The notes beneath the pieces were generated by a model that saw only the letters and a list, made by a program, of their open reading frames with translations, did no database searches and had not been told where the DNA came from. Shown here piece by piece: positions 19,182-30,870 of a stretch of DNA of 64,000 nt. Positions within the stretch are counted from its first letter, which is position 1, and each line of letters opens with the position of its first letter. Source of the stretch: Novosphingobium sp. CECT 9465. GTDB taxonomy: Bacteria > Pseudomonadota > Alphaproteobacteria > Sphingomonadales > Sphingomonadaceae. The translations under genes and the position numbers were made by a program. The stretch spans positions 124,001-188,000 of the forward strand of contig NZ_CAKLBX010000002.1 of NCBI RefSeq assembly GCF_920987055.1, written 5' to 3'.

Positions 19182-22100
19182 TCACGCCGCGTATCGCCCG
19201 TCGTTGAGCCGCCTTGCCATCCCGATGCCGGCGAGCGCGTCCAGCACCGGGCGGACGGTGGCGGCGCGTTTGCCCTTAAACGCTCGGGCGACGTCTTGCG
19301 GGGCGAGCGGAGTCGCGGCGGCGGTGAGGATGGATTGGACCGCGCTGACCTGTTCGGGGAGCGAGCCGGGCCAGGGGATGACGTTGTCGGGCAGCGCGCC
19401 GTCGGTTTCGCCGAGGTCGAGCGTCTGGGTGACGGGGGCCTTGTAGTCGGGTGCCTGATATTCGGGGCGCAGCCAGCGGATCAAGCCGCGGGCTTCCTCG
19501 GCGGCGCGCTCCTTGTTGAGGGCGACGAGGCGCGTGAGAATTTCCTCGTCGGGCAGGTCAGCGGGCCAGCCATAGGCTTCTGCGACCAGCGCATCGATGG
19601 CGTCATGGTGCTGGCGGATCAGGGTGACGAGCCCGCGATCATGCATATCGCGCTCGGCATCGGTCAGCGCGCGGCCTTCCCGCAGGGCTTCGAGTACATT
19701 GTAGAGCTTGGTGAGGGTCAGGTCCTCATGGCTTTCGAGCACCCGCTTGCGCAACGCGTCGAACGCCTCGGCCTCGATTCGGATCTTGCCCTTCACCACA
19801 TCGGAAACATCTGCGGGAAATGGGAAAGGTTCGAAGCAAGTGGTATTGTTGTAAACCGGGTCGTTGCCTACGCCTTGTCGGCCACCTGCGGCGTCAGACC
19901 AAACGACATGTATGCGACTTGAAAGCACGCCGAGATAGAAGGCATCGTCGATTGCGACCCCACGGATCTTCTGATCGGGCAGAACGGTCGGCGATAGAAA
20001 TGTGAACCACCGGTGTTTCGAGGTTTCAGTCGTCGCAATGTAGCGTGATTGCCCTTTCAGCGCAGCACGCATACCCGGCCGCGGCTTAGCGAAGAGCCAC
20101 CATTCCGCTGCATATTGCTGGGAGTCTGCAGTGCCACCTGACCGTGCATCTCGACCATCTTTGACGCGATTCAGCACAAACTGAAAGAGTGGGGGTGAGG
20201 CCTCGCGGGCCTGAGCTTCATTTAGGCCGAAGTAGTCAACGATGAAACCGGGAGCCTTGTTGTCGGTCAGCTCATTGCCGACGAGATATGTACGAACGAC
20301 CGACGGGAGATCGGAAAGATCGTGACCGCATTCCTTCAGCTCCTCAGCGGAAATCCGAAACCCGGTTCCCGACGGGATCACGCCCATAAACGAGACCGTA
20401 TCGTTGCTCTTCAGCGGCCCACAATCAGTGATGTTGGCCCCGATGGTCAGGTTGCTGTGGATTTGACCGAGCTGTGAAACCAGCTCCACTACGTTCGGCT
20501 GACCCTTGACCTTTCGCTCCGATTGGATGGTTTCAAGGAAGCCCATCCGCCCGGTTTTCGCTGCTGCGGTCATCGAAATTCGTACTTGTGCGGTCGTTTC
20601 ATCATCCATCCACGGATGATCGGGAATGGCAAAACTAAGCTTTAGAGCAGGCCGGGTCTTCAGCCATTTCTCGATGACGGCGCGATTGGTGACCTGCTTA
20701 ATGCTATTGGTCGAGACCAGCCCAAATGCTCTCAATTGCCCCGACTGTGTTAGTTCTGCGCAGCGGTCCCACCAGTACATCACCAGATCGACACTTTTCG
20801 GCACCTTCGGCCAAGCGGCCCGCAAGGCCTTTGCGTAGTTTTCTCCAAGCCGCTTTCTCATCCGCTTATTGCCAATGAACGGCGGATTACCGACGATGAA
20901 ATCCGCCTTGGGCCACTTCGCGGCGCGTGGCTTTATGTAGCGGAAGACTTCGACCCGCGCAGTCTCGTCAGGCACCTTCTTGCCCGTAACGGGATGCACT
21001 TTCATCGTCTCGCCGTCCCAGCGGGAGACGGGGTCCCCGTTCTCGTCCAGCTCCGCAAGCTTCTTGTCCCACTCGATCAGGGCGTCGCGGTTTTCGATGG
21101 TCTTGACGTCGCGCAGGATCGGCTCGGGCGGGGTGCGATCCGCGCCGTTCACGCGGAAGTGCCACTGCAGATAGCCGATCCACAGCACCAGCTGCGCAAT
21201 TGCGGCCGCGCGTGGGTTGATCTCGATGCCGAGGAAGTTCTCGGGCGTAATGGTGTGGCCGGTGAGCTCTGCGACATACTGGTCGTCGCCCAGTTCGACC
21301 AGCAGATCGAGCACCTCGCCCTCCAGCTCCTTCATGCGCGCCATCGCGACATAGAGGAAGTTGCCGGTGCCACAGGCGGGATCGAGAACCTTGGTCTGGG
21401 CAAGCCGGGAATGGAACGCCTCGACGAAGGCCTTCGCCTCGTCCGCCTTGCCCTCTTCGATCAGGGTGGCAGCCGCGCCGCGCACACCGTCCCAATCGGC
21501 GCGCAGCGGTTCCATGATGGTCGGGCCGATCAGCCGCTCGACATAGGCGCGCGGCGTGTAATGGGCGCCGAGCTTGGCCCGCTCCTTGGGGTTGAGCGCG
21601 CGTTCGAGCAGGGTACCGAAGATCGCGGGTTCAACCTCGGTCCAGACATGTTCGGCGGCCTGGATCAGCACCTCAAGCTCCTCCGCATCTAGGGGCAGGG
21701 CGGTGCGCTCCTTGAAGAGGTAGCCGTTGAACTTCCTGAGCGGCACGCCGAGCGCAGGCGAGAACTCGCCCTTGTCCATCGCCACCCAAAGCGCGGAAAG
21801 CTGGTGTTCGAGATGCTCCGGATGGGCGCGCTGGTTCTTGAGGAGCTGGGTGAAGCTGCCCTCGGGGATCAGCTTGCTGTCCTCGGCGAACATCGTGAAC
21901 AACACGCGCATGAGGAAGCCGCTGGTAGTCTCGGCATCATAGCCGCGCTTTTCGAGGCGGCGGGCGACGGTGGCGAGCAGATCGGCGATGTCGCGGGTAA
22001 CGCGGGCGGCGCGGGCGGTGGGATCGAGGCTCTTGGGATCGGTCCAGATGGCGCGCAGGCGGTCGCGCACATCCTCGTCGCGCAGGTCCTCCAGCATGAT

Positions 22101-22658
22101 CCGGTAGCGCGCGCGGTCGGGGAACTGGGCGTAGGCTTTGCCGGTACCGGTGAAGTCGGCGTAGACTTCGATGCAATATCCGATGTCGGCGACGAGCAGG
22201 AACGGCGGCCATCCATGATCGATGGGGAGCGCCTTGGCGTAGCGTTCGGCCTGACCCTTGGCCTGAACCATTGCCTTGGCCCACCCCGGCGTGCCGCGCC
22301 GGGCGGTGCCACGGGCGACGCGGGTTTTGGCGGTCTGGCCGAAGATGTCGAGATCGTCCTCGCCCTTGTCGGCCGCCGCCCGGTCAGCCTCGCTGCCCTG
22401 CTTGGCCTCGAGGATGAAGCAGCCACGCTTGTAGCAGTCGATCCGGCCGAAACTGGAGGTGCCGTCGCCATTGTCCTGAAAGACGCGCCGCTCGAAGACG
22501 TAGTCGTTGGCGGTGTCGTCAGCCTTCGCGCCGCGCGGGGGATCGACGCCGAGCAGCCGGGCCAGGCCGTTGATGAAGGACTGGGTATTTGCAAGTTCGC
22601 TACCGCCGGTCCCGCGCCATTCGGCTATAAAGGTCTCGATATCAGAAGGTTCGGCCAT
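19182..22658 (-). CDS. MmeI-like single-chain restriction-modification enzyme (type IIG/IIL)
   Basis: The protein has 1158 residues from 'MAEPSDIETFIAEWR' (the open frame runs on to 23189, but that leader overlaps the divergent gene). The N-terminal nuclease core is 'GRIDCYKRGCFILEAKQG' with D74 and E84-x-K86. A helical linker follows. Then come methyltransferase motif I 'VLDPACGTGNF' near 422 and motif IV 'VGNPPFIG' near 588, an N6-adenine type. A target-recognition region with 'RHRWFTFLSPTVLPDQ'-like and 'GVLSSRIHVVW' motifs precedes a short C-terminal winged tail. Cutting and methylating activities are in one chain, so no separate subunits are needed. The only start signal is weak. Confidence 0.82.
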   Translation of the reverse strand: MAEPSDIETFIAEWRGTGGSELANTQSFINGLARLLGVDPPRGAKADDTANDYVFERRVFQDNGDGTSSFGRIDCYKRGCFILEAKQGSEADRAAADKGEDDLDIFGQTAKTRVARGTARRGTPGWAKAMVQAKGQAERYAKALPIDHGWPPFLLVADIGYCIEVYADFTGTGKAYAQFPDRARYRIMLEDLRDEDVRDRLRAIWTDPKSLDPTARAARVTRDIADLLATVARRLEKRGYDAETTSGFLMRVLFTMFAEDSKLIPEGSFTQLLKNQRAHPEHLEHQLSALWVAMDKGEFSPALGVPLRKFNGYLFKERTALPLDAEELEVLIQAAEHVWTEVEPAIFGTLLERALNPKERAKLGAHYTPRAYVERLIGPTIMEPLRADWDGVRGAAATLIEEGKADEAKAFVEAFHSRLAQTKVLDPACGTGNFLYVAMARMKELEGEVLDLLVELGDDQYVAELTGHTITPENFLGIEINPRAAAIAQLVLWIGYLQWHFRVNGADRTPPEPILRDVKTIENRDALIEWDKKLAELDENGDPVSRWDGETMKVHPVTGKKVPDETARVEVFRYIKPRAAKWPKADFIVGNPPFIGNKRMRKRLGENYAKALRAAWPKVPKSVDLVMYWWDRCAELTQSGQLRAFGLVSTNSIKQVTNRAVIEKWLKTRPALKLSFAIPDHPWMDDETTAQVRISMTAAAKTGRMGFLETIQSERKVKGQPNVVELVSQLGQIHSNLTIGANITDCGPLKSNDTVSFMGVIPSGTGFRISAEELKECGHDLSDLPSVVRTYLVGNELTDNKAPGFIVDYFGLNEAQAREASPPLFQFVLNRVKDGRDARSGGTADSQQYAAEWWLFAKPRPGMRAALKGQSRYIATTETSKHRWFTFLSPTVLPDQKIRGVAIDDAFYLGVLSSRIHVVWSDAAGGRQGVGNDPVYNNTTCFEPFPFPADVSDVVKGKIRIEAEAFDALRKRVLESHEDLTLTKLYNVLEALREGRALTDAERDMHDRGLVTLIRQHHDAIDALVAEAYGWPADLPDEEILTRLVALNKERAAEEARGLIRWLRPEYQAPDYKAPVTQTLDLGETDGALPDNVIPWPGSLPEQVSAVQSILTAAATPLAPQDVARAFKGKRAATVRPVLDALAGIGMARRLNDGRYAA

Positions 22659-22784
22659 ATGGCACGTTGTAGAGCACAGCTTATCCCTTTGGGCAATGAG
22701 TGTGGCTTGGCTTGGACCGCGTTCAGCGAGCGACGGTCGATCAGCTGGTTTACAAAATTGCCTCTGGTTGACAGATTCTATAAA

Positions 22785-23435
22785 ATGCCCATAAAGTGGG
22801 ATTGCATCTGCAAGTGGGGCACATCCGTGGCAAAAATCTATCCTTGGGAATACCATCCGGACCTTACAGACGACCGCCTTAAGGCGGTTGCTGCTATGCT
22901 CGTCGATGGGCGCCATGCCGCGCTCGACCGCTACGATGCAGAGGCTGGCGACAATGGTTGGACCCACGGGTGCCGGGCGTTCCAGTTTTGTCGCCATCGG
23001 GTAGTCCACGCGATCGATAGCGGCGATTATCCGTGGCTGACCGCGATCGATCGGTCGCTCCAACTCATCTTCAAGATCGGCGAGGTGCCGGTGCGGATCT
23101 ACAAGGGTGAGGCGGAAGACCCGACTGATCGGACTTTGAAGCAAAGCTTCGGTGAGAAGAGCCAGCTTGAAATGCTTTTCCCGGAGCACGATGAGGGTCG
23201 CGATCTAGCATATCGGTTTGCGGTTGAGACCGACATCGACGGCAGCGTGCTCGCGGTGAAGTTTGTCGGTCTACGCGGTGACGCAGCAGTGCTGATCTGG
23301 GAGGTGCCTCTCGAGGGGGTTTCTACCTTTACAGGGACGGTCGGCCGTGCGGCGACGGAGAGTGTCGAGTTGGCCGCTCCAAGTGTTGGGTTGCGCACTG
23401 AAGATGGCAGCGCAGATGGCAGCACCGGCGTTTGA
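22785..23435 (+). CDS. hypothetical protein divergent from the RM gene, upstream of XRE-ImmA
   Basis: It encodes 216 residues from ATG 22785, or 202 from GTG 22827. The latter is attractive because TTGACA (22768-22773) and ATAAAG (22791-22796), spaced 17 bases, look like a promoter that would overlap the ATG, and a GTGGGG site precedes the GTG. The mature sequence begins 'AKIYPWEYHPDLTDDRLKAV' and has a conserved-looking middle ('TLKQSFGEKSQLEMLFPEHDEGRDLAYRF'). No known motif is seen. It overlaps or abuts the XRE-ImmA gene, so the pair is probably one operon, divergent from the restriction enzyme. It could be a regulator, an antitoxin-like partner, or an ImmA substrate. That is inference. 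Confidence 0.5.
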   Translation: MPIKWDCICKWGTSVAKIYPWEYHPDLTDDRLKAVAAMLVDGRHAALDRYDAEAGDNGWTHGCRAFQFCRHRVVHAIDSGDYPWLTAIDRSLQLIFKIGEVPVRIYKGEAEDPTDRTLKQSFGEKSQLEMLFPEHDEGRDLAYRFAVETDIDGSVLAVKFVGLRGDAAVLIWEVPLEGVSTFTGTVGRAATESVELAAPSVGLRTEDGSADGSTGV

Positions 23436-23463
23436 CGCCGATAGGTTGAAACGGACTATTTCT

Positions 23464-24567
23464 ATGGTCGAACCGCACGTTTTCGACGGTGACCGCTTAC
23501 GGCTAGCGCGCGTAGCGAAGGGGTACACATTGGATGACCTCGGTGGGCGTGTCAGCGCGACCCGGCAGTATCTCAACCAACTAGAGCAAGGTACCAAGCT
23601 CCCAAGCGAAGAAATGATCGAGGCGCTTGCCGCCGCATTGGGAGTAACATCGCATTTTTTCTCCTTGAGTGCACGCGGCGGCGTTTCTGTTGAGCAGTGC
23701 CATTTCCGAAAGCAAAGGACTACGCCCGTGTCGGTTGTTAGTCAGGTGCTGGCGCGGGGGACGTTGCTGGATGGATTCGTCAGTCGCCTCGATCAAGCCC
23801 TCGAGCTGCCCGAAGTTTCGTTTCCCGACATACCAGTGACATGCACCAGTGACATCGAGATCGCGGCCAAACAGGCACGTGAACAATGGCAGCTCGGGAC
23901 CGGCCCGATTTCGAGTATGATGCGGGTCGTGGAGAATGCCGGAGCCGTTGTGAGCTTTTTCGCGGGCGTGTCGGAACGTGTCGATGCTCTTTCTATAGAT
24001 CGTCCCCGCCCGCTGATTATTCGGAGTGAAGCCAAGCCTGCCGCGTGTCGCTTACGCTTCGATTTAGCCCATGAATGCGGTCATTTGGTAATGCACAAGG
24101 GCATCGTGACCGGAGACAAGGCGACGGAAGATCAGGCCAATCGCTTTGCCAGTGCCTTCCTTTTACCGCGCTCTGCTTTCATCCACGAGTTCCCTCGCAG
24201 CCGCATGCTGAATTGGACTGCAATTTTCGAAATGAAACTTCGTTGGAAGGTGTCAGCATCGGCGATCCTTCGAAGGGCTTATGATCTGAAGATCTTGTCT
24301 GCCGATCAATATCGCACCGGATGCATTCACCTAAGCAAGACTGGCCAGCGCAAGTTCGAACGATTCGACGACGAAATTGCCCCTGAAATGCCTGAGCTAT
24401 TGCCGTCGGCATTGGTCGCACTGGAGCAGGCATATCCAGGAGCCGTGCGACGTATTGCTGACGATGCTGGCATCGAAGGCGACATGTTTGAATGCGTTGC
24501 CGGGCTTGGATTGCCGGAAAGACCGGACCACGATTTAACGAATATTATTCCTATTTCGGGACGCTAA
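23464..24567 (+). CDS. XRE-family regulator fused to ImmA/IrrE-type metalloprotease domain
   Basis: The protein has 367 residues from 'MVEPHVFDGDRLRLAR'; an in-frame start at 23404 would overlap the upstream gene. An N-terminal XRE helix-turn-helix (about 8-65: 'LDDLGGRVSATRQYLNQLEQG') precedes a peptidase M78 domain with zinc motif 'HECGH' at about 203-207 and a downstream 'ANRFASAFLLP'. Such proteins bind DNA and relieve repression by proteolysis, often in mobile elements and toxin-antitoxin loci. Next to a restriction-modification gene it is a candidate controller of that enzyme. The C-terminal 80 residues are helical and unrecognised. Confidence 0.75.
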   Translation: MVEPHVFDGDRLRLARVAKGYTLDDLGGRVSATRQYLNQLEQGTKLPSEEMIEALAAALGVTSHFFSLSARGGVSVEQCHFRKQRTTPVSVVSQVLARGTLLDGFVSRLDQALELPEVSFPDIPVTCTSDIEIAAKQAREQWQLGTGPISSMMRVVENAGAVVSFFAGVSERVDALSIDRPRPLIIRSEAKPAACRLRFDLAHECGHLVMHKGIVTGDKATEDQANRFASAFLLPRSAFIHEFPRSRMLNWTAIFEMKLRWKVSASAILRRAYDLKILSADQYRTGCIHLSKTGQRKFERFDDEIAPEMPELLPSALVALEQAYPGAVRRIADDAGIEGDMFECVAGLGLPERPDHDLTNIIPISGR

Positions 24568-24686
24568 GCTCCGTCTGAGGTTTTGCGACAGGTCACGGCC
24601 TCAAGTCTCGCCGAGATCGACCACAGCATCAGTGTCCAACAGCACGGCAGATGATGCAGGGTGCGGCGAGCCGATGATAACGCTTA

Positions 24687-24715
24687 TTGATTTGTTGGGA
24701 TATTCGGCCTATTTC
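24687..24715 (+). promoter_or_regulatory. candidate promoter for the RNA upstream of abiF
   Basis: TTGATT (24687-24692) and TATTTC (24710-24715) are separated by 17 bases. The predicted start, near 24722, falls just before the hairpin RNA described next. The surrounding 60 bases are more AT-rich than the neighbouring coding DNA. Each box has only partial consensus matches. Confidence 0.35.
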
Positions 24716-24721
24716 ACCCTC

Positions 24722-24781
24722 AATCGAACCCGCCCGGCCTCTGTCCGCAAGGATATGCACACTGGGCGGGTCTTTTGTTTT
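24722..24781 (+). ncRNA. structured small RNA preceding AbiF-family gene
   Basis: A perfect 8-bp GC-rich stem pairs ACCCGCCC (24728-24735) with GGGCGGGT (24764-24771) and is followed by CTTTTGTTTT, an intrinsic-terminator-like tract. Inside the 28-base loop, GTCC and GGAT close a GCAA tetraloop of the GNRA class, so the element is a compact nested hairpin of about 45-50 nucleotides. It has its own candidate promoter and ends about 30 bases before the AbiF start. AbiF-type Abi_2 genes are known to be preceded by a structured non-coding RNA (the abiF RNA motif), thought to act as an antitoxin or guide-like partner. Whether this RNA belongs to that motif needs a covariance search. Confidence 0.55.
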
Positions 24782-24810
24782 CAGGCCCTTGTCGCTAAGC
24801 ATTGGCGGGC

Positions 24811-25725
24811 ATGACGCGCGTTTTCAGCAAGCCCTCGCTCAGTCTCGATCAGCAGATCGCCCACCTGCGCGACAATGGTATGGCCATCCCTGATGAGGGG
24901 CGGGCCCGGTATTGGCTGACCCACGTCAGCTACTATCGGCTGAGTGCCTATTGGCTCTATCTCGAGCGCCCGAAGGATGAACCGGGACCGCGCTTCAATC
25001 CGGGCACCGACTTCGAGACAGTGACTGCGCTCTATGATTTTGACCGGGTCCTTCGGCGCCTTGTCATGCGCGGAACCGAGCACGTCGAGGTAGCTCTGCG
25101 CGGCAGTTGGGCCTACCAACTTGCGTCGCTCGATCATGGGCACAGCTACCTCGACGCGGGGCTCTATTCCGAGCGCAAGCAGTTCCACGACAATCTTGCG
25201 AAGCTGGCAAAGGACGTGGGGGAGTCCAACGAAACCTACATCGATCACTATCGGAAGACTTATCGCGCCCCGGCGCTGCCGCCAGTGTGGATGGTCGCCG
25301 AGATGATGTCGTTCGGTCAGCTGTCTCGATGGTATTCGAGCCTCGCGGACCGATCGCTCCGCAACCGGATCGCAGTTCCCCTCGGGCTGACCGAGACGGT
25401 TCTGGTGCCTTTCGTCCGCCACCTCGTCGATGTCCGCAACATCTGCGCACATCATGGGCGGCTCTGGAACCGGGGTTTTTTGATTTGCCCGCGTCTGCCC
25501 AGCAAACCGAGAGATCTGCAGCTTTCGCTGGACCACTCGGCCGGTGAGCGACCGCCGGCGAAGCTCTACAACACGATCACCATGATCAATGGGGTGATGG
25601 GAACCGTAGCCCCTGAGTCTCAGTGGGCATGCGACGTGAAGGCGCACATCCTGACCCATCCGACCGGCGATCTGGCCGCAATGGGTTTCCCGGAAGATTG
25701 GGAAGAGAAGCCATTATGGCGATGA
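24811..25725 (+). CDS. AbiF/AbiD-family (Abi_2) HEPN abortive-infection protein
   Basis: It encodes 304 residues from ATG 24811 (a TTG three codons upstream is an alternative). The sequence follows the Abi_2 pattern: 'SLDQQIAHLRDNGM' at the N-terminus, 'YWLTHVSYYRLSAYWLYL', 'ALYDFDRVLRRLV', 'HVEVALR', and the HEPN R-x4-H motif 'RNICAHHGRLWN' with R209 and H214. These proteins are RNases that arrest infected cells. The structured RNA directly upstream is the likely antidote or cofactor. The gene stands alone between the XRE-ImmA gene and a serine recombinase, at the edge of the island. Confidence 0.85.
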   Translation: MTRVFSKPSLSLDQQIAHLRDNGMAIPDEGRARYWLTHVSYYRLSAYWLYLERPKDEPGPRFNPGTDFETVTALYDFDRVLRRLVMRGTEHVEVALRGSWAYQLASLDHGHSYLDAGLYSERKQFHDNLAKLAKDVGESNETYIDHYRKTYRAPALPPVWMVAEMMSFGQLSRWYSSLADRSLRNRIAVPLGLTETVLVPFVRHLVDVRNICAHHGRLWNRGFLICPRLPSKPRDLQLSLDHSAGERPPAKLYNTITMINGVMGTVAPESQWACDVKAHILTHPTGDLAAMGFPEDWEEKPLWR

Positions 25726-25777
25726 TCAGTTTCGTCGGTTAGCCCACCCATCTGCTGCAAGCACGATCAGTCAACGG

Positions 25778-26359
25778 CTATGAAGCCGCTTCGCCCCGCC
25801 GGATCGTCCGATACACCGTCGGCCGAGAGACCTTGAACAGCTTGCCGAGGTCGCTGATCGAGTATTCGCCGGTGGCGTGCATCTTGAGCAGTTCGCGCTG
25901 CTGGAGGTCGGACAGCTTGGGCGGCTTGCCGCGCAGCTTGCCCTTGTCCCGGGCGATCTTCATCCCCTCGCGGGTGCGCAGGCGAATGAGGTCGCTTTCG
26001 AACTCGGCGAAGGTGGCAAGGATATTGAAGAACATCCGCCCCATCGGATCATTGGGATCGTAGACCTGCTTGCCAAGCGCAAGGCTGACGCCGCGCTTCT
26101 CCAGCTCATCGGCGATGGCCCGCGCGTCCGGCACAGAACGGGCGAGGCGATCCAGCTTCGGCACGACCAGCGTCTCGCCGGCGCGGACTGCGGCCAGTGC
26201 CTGAGCGAGACCGGGGCGATCGCGGTTGCGGCCGGTCAGGCCGTGGTCGGTGTAGATGCGGTCCTCGGGCACTCCGAGTTCGATCAGCGCGCGGCGCTGC
26301 GCGGTGAGATCCTGCTTGTCGGTCGAGCAGCGGGCATATCCGATGAGGGTCTTGGTCAT
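25778..26359 (-). CDS. serine recombinase (resolvase/invertase family)
   Basis: The protein has 193 residues. The catalytic serine lies in 'YARCSTDKQDL' (S12), with the conserved 'LVVPKLDRLARS' and 'MGRMFFNILATFAEFE' segments, and a C-terminal Hin-type helix-turn-helix ('YSISDLGKLFKVSRPTVYRTIRRG'). It catalyses site-specific strand exchange, either resolving transposition cointegrates or inverting DNA. No transposase of the Tn3 type is beside it and no crossover site was recognised. Its position between the defence genes and a VapBC module suggests it mobilised, or is a remnant of what delivered, part of the island. Confidence 0.88.
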   Translation of the reverse strand: MTKTLIGYARCSTDKQDLTAQRRALIELGVPEDRIYTDHGLTGRNRDRPGLAQALAAVRAGETLVVPKLDRLARSVPDARAIADELEKRGVSLALGKQVYDPNDPMGRMFFNILATFAEFESDLIRLRTREGMKIARDKGKLRGKPPKLSDLQQRELLKMHATGEYSISDLGKLFKVSRPTVYRTIRRGEAAS

Positions 26360-26584
26360 TTGTAACGGATGAGGCCCCTGTGTGAGAAAATAAAGCGTAC
26401 CACCTTAATGAGAGAGCAGGCAAGCCGGATTTGCGGAGGGCAGGGGGGTCTGACCTCTGGCGCCTGGAAAGTGTCCGGTGAACGATCCGCTGCGGTCGCA
26501 CGAGCTTCTCTCATTTCCGATGTATCGGCTTGTGCTTGATACAGGGTTCCGAAGAGTGTACTGACCCATCGACTATACAGTGAG

Positions 26585-26842
26585 GTGCCTTATGTGAACG
26601 TGCAACGAGGAAAACTTGTTTCGGGGGGAAGGCTGCAATTGCCGGTCGAGATCCGGCGTGCGCTCTCTCTATCCGATGGTGACACCGTGCTCCTCGAAGT
26701 GGTCAATGGCGAGATCCACGTGCGACCCTATCGCGACGCTGTGGCTCGCGTTCAGGCAAAGTTGCGCAAGTACGTCGAGCCAGGTCGCAGCTTATCCGAC
26801 GAATTGATGGCTGAGCGCCGGACTGCCGCAGAAAATGAGTGA
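26585..26842 (+). CDS. vapB: AbrB/VapB-type antitoxin
   Basis: It encodes 85 residues starting at GTG 26585; a second GTG at 26594 is possible. The N-terminal swapped-hairpin AbrB fold is visible in 'LVSGGRLQLPVEIRRALSLSDGDTVLLEV'. The C-terminal charged tail ('RSLSDELMAERRTAAENE') would neutralise the toxin. The stop overlaps the PIN toxin start by eight bases, so the pair is coupled and autoregulated as usual for VapBC. Confidence 0.8.
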   Translation: MPYVNVQRGKLVSGGRLQLPVEIRRALSLSDGDTVLLEVVNGEIHVRPYRDAVARVQAKLRKYVEPGRSLSDELMAERRTAAENE

Positions 26843-27224
26843 TTCGCGCTACATGCTGGATGCTTCGGCCGTGCTCGCGATGATGCTCGGCGAGGACGGC
26901 GGCGATCAGGTCAGAGAGCGGCTTGCTGCCAGCCAGATCAGCGCCGTGAACCTTTCTGAGGTTGTTGCCAAACTCCAAGAAAGCGGCGTGCCCGATGAGG
27001 TCATTACGTCCAGTCTTGCGGAACTGAAATTCGACGTGCTCGCGTTCGATCAGAGTCAGGCAGTACGTGCCGGACTGTTGCGTACGGCAACGCGAAGCAT
27101 CGGGTTGTCATTGGGGGATCGAGCGTGTCTTGGCGCAGCCGAGTCGTGCAATGCCGTTGCGGTGACCACCGATCGAGCATGGAGTAAACTCGAGGTCAAT
27201 GTCGCCATCGAAGTTCTTCGCTAA
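26835..27224 (+). CDS. vapC: VapC-type PIN-domain ribonuclease toxin
   Basis: The protein has 129 residues. The acidic PIN residues are present: D9 in 'MLDASAVLAM', the Glu of 'VNLSEVVAKL', the Asp of 'GLSLGDRACLG' and the Asp of 'VTTDRAW'. This makes it a Mg-dependent RNase. It is the first of two VapBC modules in the window; the second (34957-35588) has the same layout and sizes but clearly different sequence. The module may stabilise the neighbouring accessory DNA. Confidence 0.82.
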   Translation: MSDSRYMLDASAVLAMMLGEDGGDQVRERLAASQISAVNLSEVVAKLQESGVPDEVITSSLAELKFDVLAFDQSQAVRAGLLRTATRSIGLSLGDRACLGAAESCNAVAVTTDRAWSKLEVNVAIEVLR

Positions 27225-27241
27225 GTTCCGCCGTCGACCCA

Positions 27242-27268
27242 AACTTAGTCGTTCATGAAGGCTAAGTT
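27242..27268. terminator. hairpin after vapC
   Basis: AACTTAG (27242-27248) and CTAAGTT (27262-27268) form a perfect 7-bp stem with a 13-base loop, between the convergent vapC and LysR 3' ends. There is no clear T-tract on either strand, so termination is only probable. Confidence 0.35.
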
Positions 27269-27843
27269 GTAGGTCCGCCTTCGCCCGAAACTGCCATCCG
27301 GTCGATCAGAGATCCCCGGCGCACTCTCGCGCCAGTTTGATGAATGCCTTAAATGCGGCAGATGGATTGCGCCGGCTGGGATAATAAAGGGCGAGAGGCG
27401 ACAGCGGTGGCGTCCAATCTGCCAGAACCCGTATCAAACGCCCCGAAGCAAGATCGTCCCGAACATCGGATTCCATGAAGAAGCCAATCCCAATGCTGTC
27501 CAATATGGCCATGCGGGAAAGACTCGCTTCGTCGAGGGTGATGGGGCCATCGACATCAACCTGAACGGGCTGCCCATTCTTCTCGAAATGCCACCGGTAG
27601 AGCGCGCCATTGGGTAGCCTGACGCGAAGGCATCGGTGGGCATGCAGATCCGTCGGAACTTGCGGTTCGCCATATTTCTCGAGATAGTCCGGTGTGGCTA
27701 CGACTGCGAAATGTCTGGGACTGCCCAGAGAAACAGCGATCATATCACCGGGAACGAGGTCGGCAGACCGGACGCCGAGATCGAAGCCCTCGTCAACGAC
27801 ATCAACTAGTCGTCCCTCCGTGACCAGATCAATGTGAACCTGA

Positions 27844-27852
27844 GGATAGAGC
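27844..27852. repeat. target-site duplication, left copy
   Basis: GGATAGAGC directly precedes the TGT terminus of the insertion sequence. The identical nine bases follow the other terminus. One extra base over the usual 4-8 bp of this family may be chance identity. Confidence 0.85.
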
Positions 27853-27964
27853 TGTGGACCGGCGTGCAAAAGGGACCCCGTTAGCGGGGTGATCGGCGTC
27901 TAAAAGGGACCCCTCATTCTGATGGTGTAGCAGGCTGCCTGGTTTTCCAGGTGGCGAGATCGGG

Positions 27965-29491
27965 ATGTTGGTGGTGGAGACAGTTGTTCGGATTCGGCGC
28001 GAGCACGCCAGTGGGAAGGCGATCAAGGCGATAGCGCGGGATCTGCGGCTGTCGCGCAAGGTGGTGCGCAAGGCGATCCGGGCGCCGGAGGGGGCATTCG
28101 ATTACCACCGCACGGTTCAGCCGCTGCCTCGGCTTGGGCCGTTCCAGGAGCGGCTCGATACGCTGCTGACGGAGAATGAGGCCCGGCATCGGCGCGATCG
28201 GCTGCGGATGACGCGGATTCATGACTTGTTGTGCCGGGAAGGCTTCGAGGGATCCTACGACGCGGTCCGGCGCTACGCCCGGCGCTGGACGGAAGCGCGG
28301 CGCAAAGATGCTGGCGCCAATGGCAATGGGGGCACCCCGGCCTTCATCCCGCTGCTGTTCCAGCCTGGCGAGGCCTATCAGTTCGACTGGAGCCACGAGG
28401 ACGTGGAGATCGCCGGCAAGCCGATGCGGGTGAAGGTGGCCCACATGCGGCTGTGCGCGTCTCGGGCGGTCTACGTCCGGGCTTACCCGCGCGAGACGCA
28501 GGAGATGGTGTTCGATGCCCATGCCCGGGGATTTGCCTTCTTCGGCGGCGTTCCGCTGCGTGGAATCTACGACAATATGAAGACCGCGGTGACCTCAGTC
28601 TTCGTCGGCAAGGAGCGTGTGTTCAACCGCCGCTTTCTGGTCATGGCCGATCATTACATGGTCGAGCCCACGGCCTGCTCGCCGGCGGCGGGATGGGAGA
28701 AGGGTCAGGTCGAGAACCAGGTCCAGACCATCCGGGGCCGTTTCTTCCAGCCTCGCCTGCGCTTTGCCAGCATCGAGGAGCTCAACGGATGGCTGGAAGC
28801 CGAGTGCCTGCGCTGGGCCGCATTGCATCCGCATCCCGAGCAGAAGGAACTGACCGTTGCCGAGGCGCTCGATCTCGAACGGCCGGCATTGCAGCCGATG
28901 CTGGCGCCTTTCGATGGCTTCCACGAGACCGCCCATGCCGTGACTGGCACCTGCCTTATCAGCTTCGACCGCAACCGCTATTCTGTAATGGCCAAGGCCG
29001 CGCGGCGTGCCGTCCAGGTCCGTGCCTATGCCGATCGGATTGTCGTCCGCCTCGGCGATGAGGTTATCGCCGAGCATGCCCGGTACTTTGGCCGTGACCG
29101 GACGATCTACGATCCCTGGCATTATCTCCCCGTCCTCGCCAACAAGCCCGGCGCCTGGCGCAACGGCGCCCCCTTCCATGGCTGGAACCTGCCGCCGGCA
29201 CTGACGCGGCTGCGCCGCAAGCTGGGGAGCGGTGACGAGGCCGACCGGCGCTTCGTGCGCGTCCTGGCCGCTGTACTGACCGATGGCCTGGAAGCGGTCG
29301 AGGCTGCGATCCGTGAGGCGCTCGATGCCGGTGCCGCCAGCGACGAGGTGATCCTCAACATCCTGGCGCGATACCGCGAGCCAGCAACCGACCGGCCCCT
29401 CGACTTGGTCGTCGACCTCAAGCTCAACCATCCGCCGATCGCGGACTGCGCCCGCTACGACACAGTGCGAGGCCTCGATGCAGCGGCATGA
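27965..29491 (+). CDS. istA: IS21-family transposase IstA
   Basis: The protein has 508 residues. An N-terminal helix-turn-helix ('[20 protein letters not shown]') is followed by an RNase-H-fold DDE core: first Asp in '[14 protein letters not shown]', second Asp in '[10 protein letters not shown]' and Glu in '[11 protein letters not shown]'. The C-terminal beta-rich domain ('[20 protein letters not shown]') is typical of IstA. It cuts and joins the element ends and needs IstB for target choice. Its 3' end overlaps istB by 14 bases. Confidence 0.93.
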
Positions 29492-30206
29492 GATGATCGA
29501 GGCGATGCGCGGGCTTGGCCTCAGGGGTATGGCCGGCGCGTTCGACGAGGCCGTCACTACGGGGCTGCAACGCAAGCGCACGACCCACGAGATCCTGACC
29601 GACCTGCTGCGTGCCGAAGCTGCGCATCGGCATGCTGCATCGATCCGCTACCGCATGACCGCAGCCAAGCTGCCGGTGGTCAAGGATCTCGATGCCTTCG
29701 TGTTCGAGGGCACCCCGATCAACGAGGGCTTGGTCCGCTCCCTCCACTCTGGCTCATTCATCCCAGCGCATCGCAACATCGTGCTCATCGGTGGCACGGG
29801 CACCGGCAAGACTCACCTCGCCACCGCGATCACCGCCAGCGTCGTTCGTGCCGGCGCCCGCGGGCGCTACTTCAACACGGTCGACCTCGTCACCCGGCTC
29901 GAGGAGGAGGCCCGTATCGGCAAGGCCGGCGCCATGGCCGCCCAGCTCAGTCGGCTCGACGTCGTGGTCCTCGACGAACTGGGCTACCTGCCGTTCGCCC
30001 GCTCAGGCGGACAACTGCTGTTCCACCTGATCAGCAAGCTCTACGAGAAGACCTCGGTCATCATCACCACCAACCTGGCCTTCGGCGAATGGCCTACCGT
30101 CTTCGGCGATCCCAAGATGACCACCGCGCTGCTCGACCGCATCACGCATCATTGCGATATCGTCGAGACCGGCAACGACAGCTGGCGCTTCAAACACCGC
30201 AGCTGA
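29478..30206 (+). CDS. istB: IS21-family helper ATPase IstB
   Basis: The protein has 242 residues, the usual size. Walker A '[13 protein letters not shown]' and Walker B '[11 protein letters not shown]' are intact, with the sensor-like '[19 protein letters not shown]' and a C-terminal '[16 protein letters not shown]' typical of IstB. It is an AAA+ protein related to DnaC that assembles on target DNA and recruits IstA. Translation is coupled to istA by overlap. Confidence 0.93.
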
Positions 30207-30282: not shown

Positions 30283-30371
30283 AACTGCGCCCAGCTTCAA
30301 TCGATCAACGCGACGCCGAGGGGGTCCCTTTTGCGCGCCGATAGGGGGGCCCGATTGGACGCCGATTGACA

Positions 30372-30380
30372 GGATAGAGC
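30372..30380. repeat. target-site duplication, right copy
   Basis: GGATAGAGC directly follows the ACA terminus of the insertion sequence and matches the left copy at 27844-27852 exactly. Confidence 0.85.
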
Positions 30381-30870
30381 CGCAGGAACTGTAGGATGAG
30401 CGGCGTCATGATCTCGCGAGCGGCCGTTGGAAAAGCGTTGATGCGCAAGGTTCCAGAAGGCACTTCCTGCTGCGATCGCACAGTCTCCATTGCCTCGTGA
30501 ATGTCCTGCAGCGCAGGCCCTACCCGGTCGACGAAGCTTCGGCCCGCATCCGTAAGTGAGACGCTTCGGGTGGTACGGTTGAATAGGCGCACGCCAAGCT
30601 GGCGCTCGAGCTTGGCAATGGCATTGCTCAGTGCGGTGGTAGACACGCCCAGATGAGTTGCCGCGGCACGGAATGACCCCTTGCGCATGATGGCAATCAC
30701 TGCGTCGAGTTCGATCAGGCTATGTCTCTTCATCGTTCCGCCAATCGCAATGTTTCATCCCGCTTTATCCCGATTATCGCGCCGCCGCTAAGCGCTAAAT
30801 TAGCCCCATCGTCGAACCAAAGATGGATGACCGCACCGGCCATCCGGTTTCTGACAGGATGGAGGAAATT

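Follow-up and report, generated by a model that had tools for sequence, protein, structure and literature searches.

We analysed a window of 64,000 nt from Novosphingobium sp. CECT 9465 (assembly GCF_920987055.1, contig NZ_CAKLBX010000002.1, positions 124,001-188,000, forward strand); coordinates given below are those of the window. Its positive strand contains a cassette formed by a putative promoter, a small structured RNA and an AbiF (Abi_2) HEPN gene, with a total extent of 24663..25725 as judged from DNA similarity to other loci. The gene (24811..25725, ATG start, 304 aa) was assigned through matches to PF07751, PADLOC and 8vz6. An earlier note had described a -35/-10 pair spaced by 17 bases and, about 30 bases before AbiF, a nested hairpin (8-bp stem, GCAA inner loop) ending in a T-rich tract, and direct reading of the sequence confirmed both. 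The -35-like hexamer TTGATT (24687..24692, +) and the -10-like hexamer TATTTC (24710..24715, +) are separated by a 17-nt spacer and match the sigma-70 consensus weakly, at 7 of 12 positions by manual count. The promoter scan did not list the pair 24687-24715, and a second -35/-10 pair in the same upstream stretch had an equal consensus score. A loose form of the spaced pair was present in 21 of the 25 distinct upstream regions with the same RNA variant (type A), whose -10 boxes read TATCTC, TATGTG, TATCTT and similar. The predicted transcript is a type A abiF-type RNA of ~55-60 nt (24722..24781, +), recognised by homologue conservation and a match to our RNA model R1 (see below), its start at 24722 being inferred from the position of the -10 box. 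From the end of the T tract (24781) to the ATG (24811) the gap is 29 nt; an in-frame TTG lies ahead of the ATG at 24802, and the start residue at 24811 was the same in close homologues such as L050-L057.

The genes around AbiF are of defence or mobile type and encode a type IIG restriction enzyme, an HTH/M78 protein, a resolvase and a MazE/PIN pair. The restriction enzyme (19182-23189; PADLOC, 1481 bits) and the HTH/M78 protein, which matches PADLOC RmrA, form a small defence island upstream of AbiF (19182-24567), and a gene pair for a MazE-type antitoxin and a PIN-domain toxin (26585-27224) stands behind the AbiF/resolvase region. Farther downstream, a LysR regulator gene (27306-27869 and 30305-30733, negative strand) is apparently split by an IS21-type element carrying IstA-like (27965-29491) and IstB (29478-30206) genes, with the substrate domain on one side and the HTH on the other. 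DNA similarity to the loci that have a 5' side started at 24663-24721 and mostly stopped within or at the gene end; three loci, L006 and the 3' fragments L031 and L034, stayed similar beyond the gene and across the resolvase as far as 26487-26488, and L019 gave a separate match to the restriction gene. The promoter-RNA-gene cassette is shared as a unit among differing surroundings. One RNA-AbiF cassette (L427, CP113227.1) was located inside an apparent type I restriction-modification operon, between the methyltransferase and specificity genes, and another (L104) had a similar setting.

The protein belongs to the AbiF family of HEPN proteins, as the earlier note had claimed: it matched PF07751 (Abi_2) with an E value of 7e-51 and 173.5 bits versus a curated cut-off of 25.6, and its RNICAH aligned with RNSCCH (residues 210-215) of 8vz6, the HEPN RxxxxH motif. 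The PADLOC profile named it AbiD (E 6.6e-63). Its only PDB relative at E <=0.001 was 8vz6 ('Abi family protein'; E 2.5e-42, residues 5-304), and the likeness to the PbAbiF-AbiFr system (8VZ6) lies at the protein level, in nearly full-length homology and RxxxxH. The window genome gave one Abi_2 match. 8VZ6 is described as PbAbiF with its RNA, one RNA being bound per monomer (PMC12737573), and the R210A+H215A variant of PbAbiF is reported as inactive (PMC12373285). By analogy with the studied AbiF systems, RNase activity, toxicity and an anti-phage effect are predicted for the window AbiF. AbiF has also been proposed as an ancestor of Cas13 (PMC12165695, PMC12737573).

The RNA is organised around an outer stem of 8 bp in which ACCCGCCC (24728..24735, +) pairs with GGGCGGGT (24764..24771, +), with 100% of cells paired in 21 sequences. 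Within it we placed, by homology to the helix of the Rfam abiF RNA RF03085 (AGC/GCU or CGC/GCG), an inner GC helix (24737..24738 with 24757-24758), followed by the apical hairpin GUCC-GCAA-GGAU (24743..24754; arms 24743-24746 and 24751-24754, 4 bp), which marks the type A variant and is lengthened by the pair U24742-A24755. The 3' side of the inner helix and the 3' bulge make up the conserved AUGCACACU (24755..24763), in which GCACACU was invariant in 21/21 rows. The T-rich tract CTTTTGTTTT (24772..24781), whose CTTT was invariant in the same 21-row alignment, is likely an intrinsic terminator together with the outer stem; the terminator scan, which accepts loops of 3-8 only, did not list this hairpin. 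Compared with 200 shuffles, the fold of the 58-nt element had a z of -3.1 (1/200 as good) and that of a 71-nt element a z of -3.0 (0/200), while the whole 115-nt stretch was weaker (z -1.7, 10/200).

Covariation was evaluated on 21 distinct type A sequences, in which 99.0% of the stem cells pair and pairing fell to 24-46% when the partner was slid by 1-3 columns. Two-sided changes occurred in 22 cells versus a shuffle mean of 7.3 (0/500 shuffles as high), and the covariation score was 0.303 versus 0.188 (sd 0.017) in shuffles and <=0.087 with the partner slid. Two of the five measures showed no excess, namely the number of type A pairs with a two-sided change (4 vs 2.9; 126/500 shuffles as high) and that of further pair types (10 vs 11.0; 497/500). 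Outer pair 1 was A-U in 18 rows and G-C in 3, outer pair 8 A-U in 14 and C-G in 7, and apical pair 24-33 was divided between C-G (12 rows) and U-A (9 rows); in the apical hairpin 96.4% of cells were paired, with two-sided changes at two pairs. The earlier note had counted a lack of stem covariation among homologous upstream regions as evidence against its RNA; the stems do covary, and this rules out a chance hairpin. The inner GC helix was invariant across the 21 rows and RNAalifold favours an alternative in which G24736-G24737 lengthen the outer stem, so the inner helix is placed by homology alone.

RF03085 is a 37-nt model with consensus CCCGCCAAGCCUCUCAACGAUGCUCAAAUCGGCGGGU. The Rfam covariance-model search suggested in the earlier note returned nothing: RF03085 had no match up to E 5 in 22000-28000 or up to E 10 in 24680-24820 (141 bases), the window RNA being below the 37-bit cut-off, and no Rfam family matches the RNA region. 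Two relatives, L002 and L035, did have a match to the model ahead of the gene; it gave no match in L008, L014 and L028 or in nine loci with type A or A-like RNAs. Both RNAs share the position upstream of abiF, the outer stem (CCCGCC/GGCGGG), the GCCUCU ... AUGC core and the 3' bulge. Aligned by eye, the window RNA retains the outer stem, the inner-helix GC, CUCU and AUGC of RF03085, whereas the CAACG apical loop becomes a 12-nt hairpin, the outer stem has 8 bp instead of 6 and the 3' bulge is shorter. RF03085 misses the window RNA because the short apical loop has been drawn out into a hairpin, and since the standard model misses a covarying RNA variant, AbiF-RNA pairs are under-counted. By position, core sequence and covariation the window RNA is an abiF-type RNA, a related variant and not a member by the Rfam model; the idea of an AbiF gene with its own structured RNA is supported. 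The description of this RNA as a simple version did not hold: the variant is derived, its apical part being longer than in the Rfam type. The window contains a real, single-copy RNA-AbiF pair with a variant RNA missed by Rfam.

A search of genome contigs yielded 44 loci, of which 26 close ones (L006-L030, L033; 56-97% identity, nearly all sphingomonads by title) hold the gene start and upstream DNA. All 26 presented the RNA in the same place upstream of AbiF; L031, L032 and L034, without the 5' end, were left out of this count. The other 15 loci are distant (<=35% identity except partial L049), and by eye several had a different hairpin and T tract there and others none visible (L048 and L049 left out). 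Model R1 was built from the type A RNAs of the close loci. On its own genome it matched 24722-24776 with 85 bits (E 2.7e-22), the next best match having 20.7 bits. Over 396 genomes of the order, R1 matched in 30, 16 of them at >=35 bits; 13 of these 16 strong matches were directly ahead of an AbiF gene (broken in G411), and no AbiF was found beside the match in the remaining three (G116, G254, G289). Low-scoring matches (L123, L125-L130, L132, L133, L135-L137) looked by eye like plain terminators or chance. RF03085, run with stricter filters over 385 genomes of the class, gave four matches at E <=0.01, one of them above the cut-off, and three of the four were directly upstream of AbiF. The RNA accompanies the toxin in the sampled alphaproteobacterial genomes and is mostly toxin-less in phage records (see below).

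In a midpoint-rooted tree of 75 AbiF proteins, with RNA types assigned by pattern and 30 of the 75 rows untyped, the 27 type A rows and the truncated gene L100 formed one clade (100/100 support) nested among rows with the Rfam-like type B RNA, which suggests that the apical hairpin was probably drawn out within the lineage of the window AbiF. The L100 match (Croceicoccus plasmid NZ_CP011771.1) lacks the first 35 residues of AbiF, and an IS110 gene stands between it and its matching RNA, at a distance of ~4.5 kb. Six phage records (L153, L158, L168, L169, L152 and L162) also had an A-like RNA ahead of AbiF. These phage AbiF systems look Bacillota-like by eye. Their AbiF proteins, absent from the tree, are 27-29% identical to the window protein, and the drawn-out apical hairpin of their RNAs may have arisen independently, by convergence. 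No viral contig was confirmed to carry a close relative of the window AbiF.

We consider it very probable, by analogy with studied systems, that the locus is a self-contained AbiF abortive-infection or type III-like toxin-antitoxin unit in which a single ~55-nt RNA serves as both terminator and antitoxin. The promoter at 24687-24715 would produce mainly a short RNA ending at the outer stem and T tract, and a minority of transcripts would read through into abiF. The short RNA would also act in trans, its conserved core GGCCUCU...AUGCACACU, seated on the inner GC helix with the 3' bulge, binding the AbiF dimer and blocking the HEPN RNase site. When infection or stress lowered the RNA relative to AbiF, the protein would cut RNA and the cell would stop. 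Termination and read-through, RNA binding, toxicity and neutralisation are modelled here on two studied AbiF systems; infection or stress as the trigger is a guess, as is a role of the elongated apical hairpin in stability or specificity. Support for this reading comes from the Abi_2 gene with its HEPN motif, the RNA at all 26 close loci, the covariation, the RF03085 matches in L002 and L035, the nested type A clade, the 13 strong R1 matches ahead of AbiF, the shared cassette and the published AbiF systems. Weighing against it are the weak promoter consensus, the lack of any RF03085 score, the invariant inner helix with its alternative fold, the two covariation measures without excess and the three strong R1 matches that have no AbiF beside them.

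A close functional parallel is the AbiF system of C. difficile, where the RNA RCd22 is reported to terminate ahead of abiF, to bind AbiF and to neutralise it in cis and trans, stem-breaking mutations abolishing binding and neutralisation (PMC12373285). The order promoter, small RNA, terminator, abiF is shared with AbiF-RCd22 (PMC12373285), and the role of the window RNA as an antitoxin in cis and trans is proposed by this analogy. RCd22 is composed of two abiF motifs and a separate terminator, whereas the window RNA has one motif and its outer stem is likely the terminator. Direct RNA-protein binding as the means of neutralisation is likewise taken from homologues, and from the bulge contacts described for PbAbiF (PMC12737573) the 3' bulge region 24755-24763 would be expected to contact the protein. 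How the RNA binds the toxin, which the earlier note had hoped such a locus would reveal, is no longer a blank, the PbAbiF-RNA structure 8VZ6 having already been published (PMC12737573, PMC12373285). The layout is that of a type III system, with the RNA gene directly upstream of the toxin gene and a terminator between them (terminator and RNase function being predicted). Tandem antitoxin repeats, given as a key type III feature in PMC12373285, were not found at this locus, where the RNA is single copy with one strong R1 match in the genome; for this reason we call it 'type III-like'.

An outer stem and T tract directly ahead of the gene could also be explained by a hairpin that, as terminator or leader, sets abiF expression in cis and has no role in trans. 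This we regard as unlikely: a terminator needs neither the invariant GGCCUCU/GCACACU core nor the covarying apical hairpin, the same kind of RNA occurs in phage records where no Abi_2 was found, and in C. difficile the homologous RNA works in trans (PMC12373285). That the RNA might lead AbiF to target RNAs, as crRNA does Cas13, is scarcely credible even though the HEPN domains of Cas13an group with AbiD/F (PMC12165695), since there is no variable spacer, the RNA is nearly invariant outside its stems and a review describes AbiF as without RNA-targeting specificity (PMC12948488).

Apart from the RNA-AbiF pairs, the R1 search revealed RNAs beside phage genes. The copy in G116 (L118) adjoins an endolysin/virion-protein gene and keeps the core, and its outer stem is wholly different yet fully paired; two weak matches were located beside a transglycosylase-type phage gene (L124, 30.4 bits) and between head-assembly and major head genes (L134, 23.3 bits). 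On the basis of these three matches IMG/VR was scanned with four patterns. Class A (GGCCTCT..ATGCACACT) gave 29 loci, 11 with an outer stem >=5 bp by script; R1 produced 17 matches at E <=1 among them and the remainder were taken as chance. Abi_2 was present in 6 of 26 whole class A records and absent from L143, L145, L159, L165 and L166, among others. Class B (ACGCCTCT..ATGCGCACC) gave at least 120 loci, with an outer stem >=5 bp in 106 of the 120 listed and AbiF by profile near one locus among the 120 matches listed. Class E (ATGCCTCT..ATGCACACT) also gave at least 120 loci; 98 of the 120 listed had an outer stem >=6 bp, and no AbiF was found for the 120 matches listed. Class C (GCCTCT..AAGCACACT), with at least 120 loci, showed an outer stem >=5 bp in 13 of the 120 listed (12/105 and 1/15) and no AbiF by profile near the 120 matches listed; with so few structured matches this pattern was judged to be mostly chance. 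All class counts refer to records, many of them near-copies, and not to independent phages.

Counted on distinct flanks, stems >=6 bp occurred among the class B matches listed in 61 of 73, versus a mean of 13.0 (max 22 in 1000) when the 3' arms were dealt among loci and of 0.84 (max 4) when the 3'-arm letters were shuffled. The corresponding values were 47/65 versus a control of 9.3 (max 17) among the class E matches listed, 8/22 versus 1.3 (max 5) for class A, and 10/86 (of 105 loci listed) versus 2.4 (max 7) for class C. Covariation was also scored among the class B matches listed, on 68 distinct sequences whose loop is 5 nt long, chosen regardless of stem: pairing was seen in 90.6% of cells, and the score was 0.390 versus 0.146 (sd 0.012) in shuffles and <=0.201 when slid; pairs with two-sided changes showed no excess (8 vs 7.0). 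The class B search pattern had placed no constraint on the stems, and yet the outer stems covary. The first and last loop bases, also left free by the pattern, were complementary in 68/68 class B sequences listed (C-G 36, U-A 29, A-U 2, G-C 1) and in 54/54 class E sequences listed with a 5-nt loop. The structure line of RF03085 leaves this apical pair unpaired, whereas it covaries in the viral class B and E RNAs. Of 20 viral loci from classes B and E, chosen because their DNA stretch was short, 15 exceeded the RF03085 gathering score. By a crude ORF set, 55 of 92 solo RNAs among the matches listed were intergenic, versus 13.4% of random places.

Abi_2 was searched in three sets of whole phage records and found in 0/50, 0/50 and 0/44. 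The choice of records was not random, most being taken for their length or to complete a set, and eight of them are named phages; 5 of the 144 (four of the 42 viral records in the last set, and phage RW) are without a 6-bp stem, and L143 and L165 had also been counted in the class A search. Because many viral records are fragments, the absence of Abi_2 from any one of them proves little. The solo phage abiF-type RNAs are conserved structured RNAs in records without Abi_2. When one neighbour protein of each of 20 solo RNAs was compared with PHROGs, 13 matched, and for 12 of these the role is known; the roles include major head, terminase, portal, tail, helicase loader and endolysin. In blastn searches the window RNA gave one chance-level match in 50,697 phage records and the L118 RNA nine, all partial and at E >=2, and two further phage RNAs returned only already known records or one more.

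A blastn search with a class B RNA brought up the named phages; it gave 339 records at E <=10, most of them short chance matches; the named-phage records are given as complete genomes, except CGphi29 ('genomic sequence'). Six named phage loci were scanned with RF03085, and three exceeded its gathering score, those of Synechococcus phage S-SZBM1 (55.7 bits, within a tRNA cluster), Aeromonas phage PZL-Ah8 (50.1 bits, between the connector and capsid-assembly genes) and Salicola phage CGphi29 (50.1 bits). The PZL-Ah8 RNA directly follows GACTATAGGGATA, which we take to resemble a T7-type promoter. Rhizobium phage Pasto and Brevundimonas phage Bajun were below the RF03085 gathering score, and the abiF-type fold was present in Aeromonas phage PT2, Pasto and Bajun, the Bajun stem being judged by folding only. 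Caulobacter phage RW was rejected, since it has the core and no outer stem. In S-CREM1 an annotated abiF RNA lies in a tRNA cluster; PMC9964418 gives it 51.6 bits, mentions three phages in the Rfam set and sees a high possibility of function, and PMC12197685 describes the role of the phage abiF RNA as unconfirmed. Between S-CREM1 and S-SZBM1 (both with host CB0101) an inner pair is swapped (U-A/A-U), the apical loop and outer stem being identical. PZL-Ah8 and PT2, themselves related, show a compensated change at an outer pair. An RNA just ahead of AbiF on the gammaproteobacterial plasmid pT75-VIM shares 89.8% identity with the PZL-Ah8 RNA (49 nt, E 2e-9); the best plasmid match of the S-SZBM1 RNA had no annotated AbiF beside it and IS6 transposases instead.

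Antitoxin-type RNAs in phages without the toxin gene are what a phage RNA antitoxin mimic would look like, and it seems reasonably probable that solo abiF RNAs are a widespread phage counter-defence, in which toxin-less RNAs would occupy host AbiF dimers and block abortive infection. The decoys would come in classes with CGC/GCG, UGC/GCA and AGC/GCU inner pairs as well as the GGC...GCA of the window, and their expression would come from phage promoters, from tRNA clusters or from junctions between structural genes. A precedent for such a mechanism is the pseudo-ToxI of phage PhiTE, also an antitoxin-like RNA in a phage, which defeats an RNase toxin-antitoxin system (PMC3475682); pseudo-ToxI targets ToxIN and its tandem repeats are expanded in escape phages, whereas for abiF the effect is proposed from the RNAs themselves. 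Several results speak against decoys: the scores of Pasto and Bajun below the gathering threshold, the absence of the RNA from RW, and the plasmid match of the S-SZBM1 RNA with no annotated AbiF at its side. We also found no host with evidence for a matching AbiF together with a susceptible phage. In the literature covered, nothing was said of phage abiF RNAs counteracting AbiF; two papers beyond that scope, the one that founded the abiF RNA family (Weinberg 2017) and the AbiF-Cas13 paper of Zilberzwige-Tal, may mention phage copies.

The phage copies might instead be relics of lost AbiF modules, or ordinary terminators or processing sites, with no effect on host AbiF. In favour of this, a U tail follows 61 of 87 distinct solo RNAs (classes A-C, among the matches listed), versus 7.8% of random places and 22/125 unstructured matches; -10-like boxes precede them in no more than slight excess (18/123 vs 8.2, among the matches listed); some phages carry AbiF systems, from which the toxin could have been lost; and L117 looks decayed by eye. 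Relics should decay, yet the loop ends are complementary in all class B sequences listed with a 5-nt loop and the stems covary, and the compensated pair of PZL-Ah8/PT2 and the swapped inner pair of S-CREM1/S-SZBM1 also argue against this explanation. A plain terminator would not need the GCCUCU...AUGC core, although this core was fixed in the pattern scans and its conservation in phages is seen only via the R1 and blastn matches. On balance we find the relic or terminator explanation rather doubtful. If the decoy reading is true, the diversity of RNA classes, including the drawn-out hairpin of the window, would be the outcome of an arms race, with AbiF shifting to a new RNA key and phages imitating it. 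RNA mimicry against AbiF would then be a common strategy, with natural pairs for testing in the two cyanophages of one host and the two Aeromonas phages.

Phage tRNA or tmRNA genes were often observed near the solo copies. Such a gene was present in 8 of the 20 viral loci scanned with a solo RNA, and in three named phages the RNA is in a tRNA cluster; the solo-RNA loci near tRNA/tmRNA genes are L420, L426, L419, L145, L474, L495, L466, L201, L278, L446, L430 and L463, of which L145 also carries a ROOL RNA. Two viral contigs each have two solo RNAs that differ in class: in L232 those of B and C adjoin each other, and in L467 those of E and F are 0.7 kb apart.
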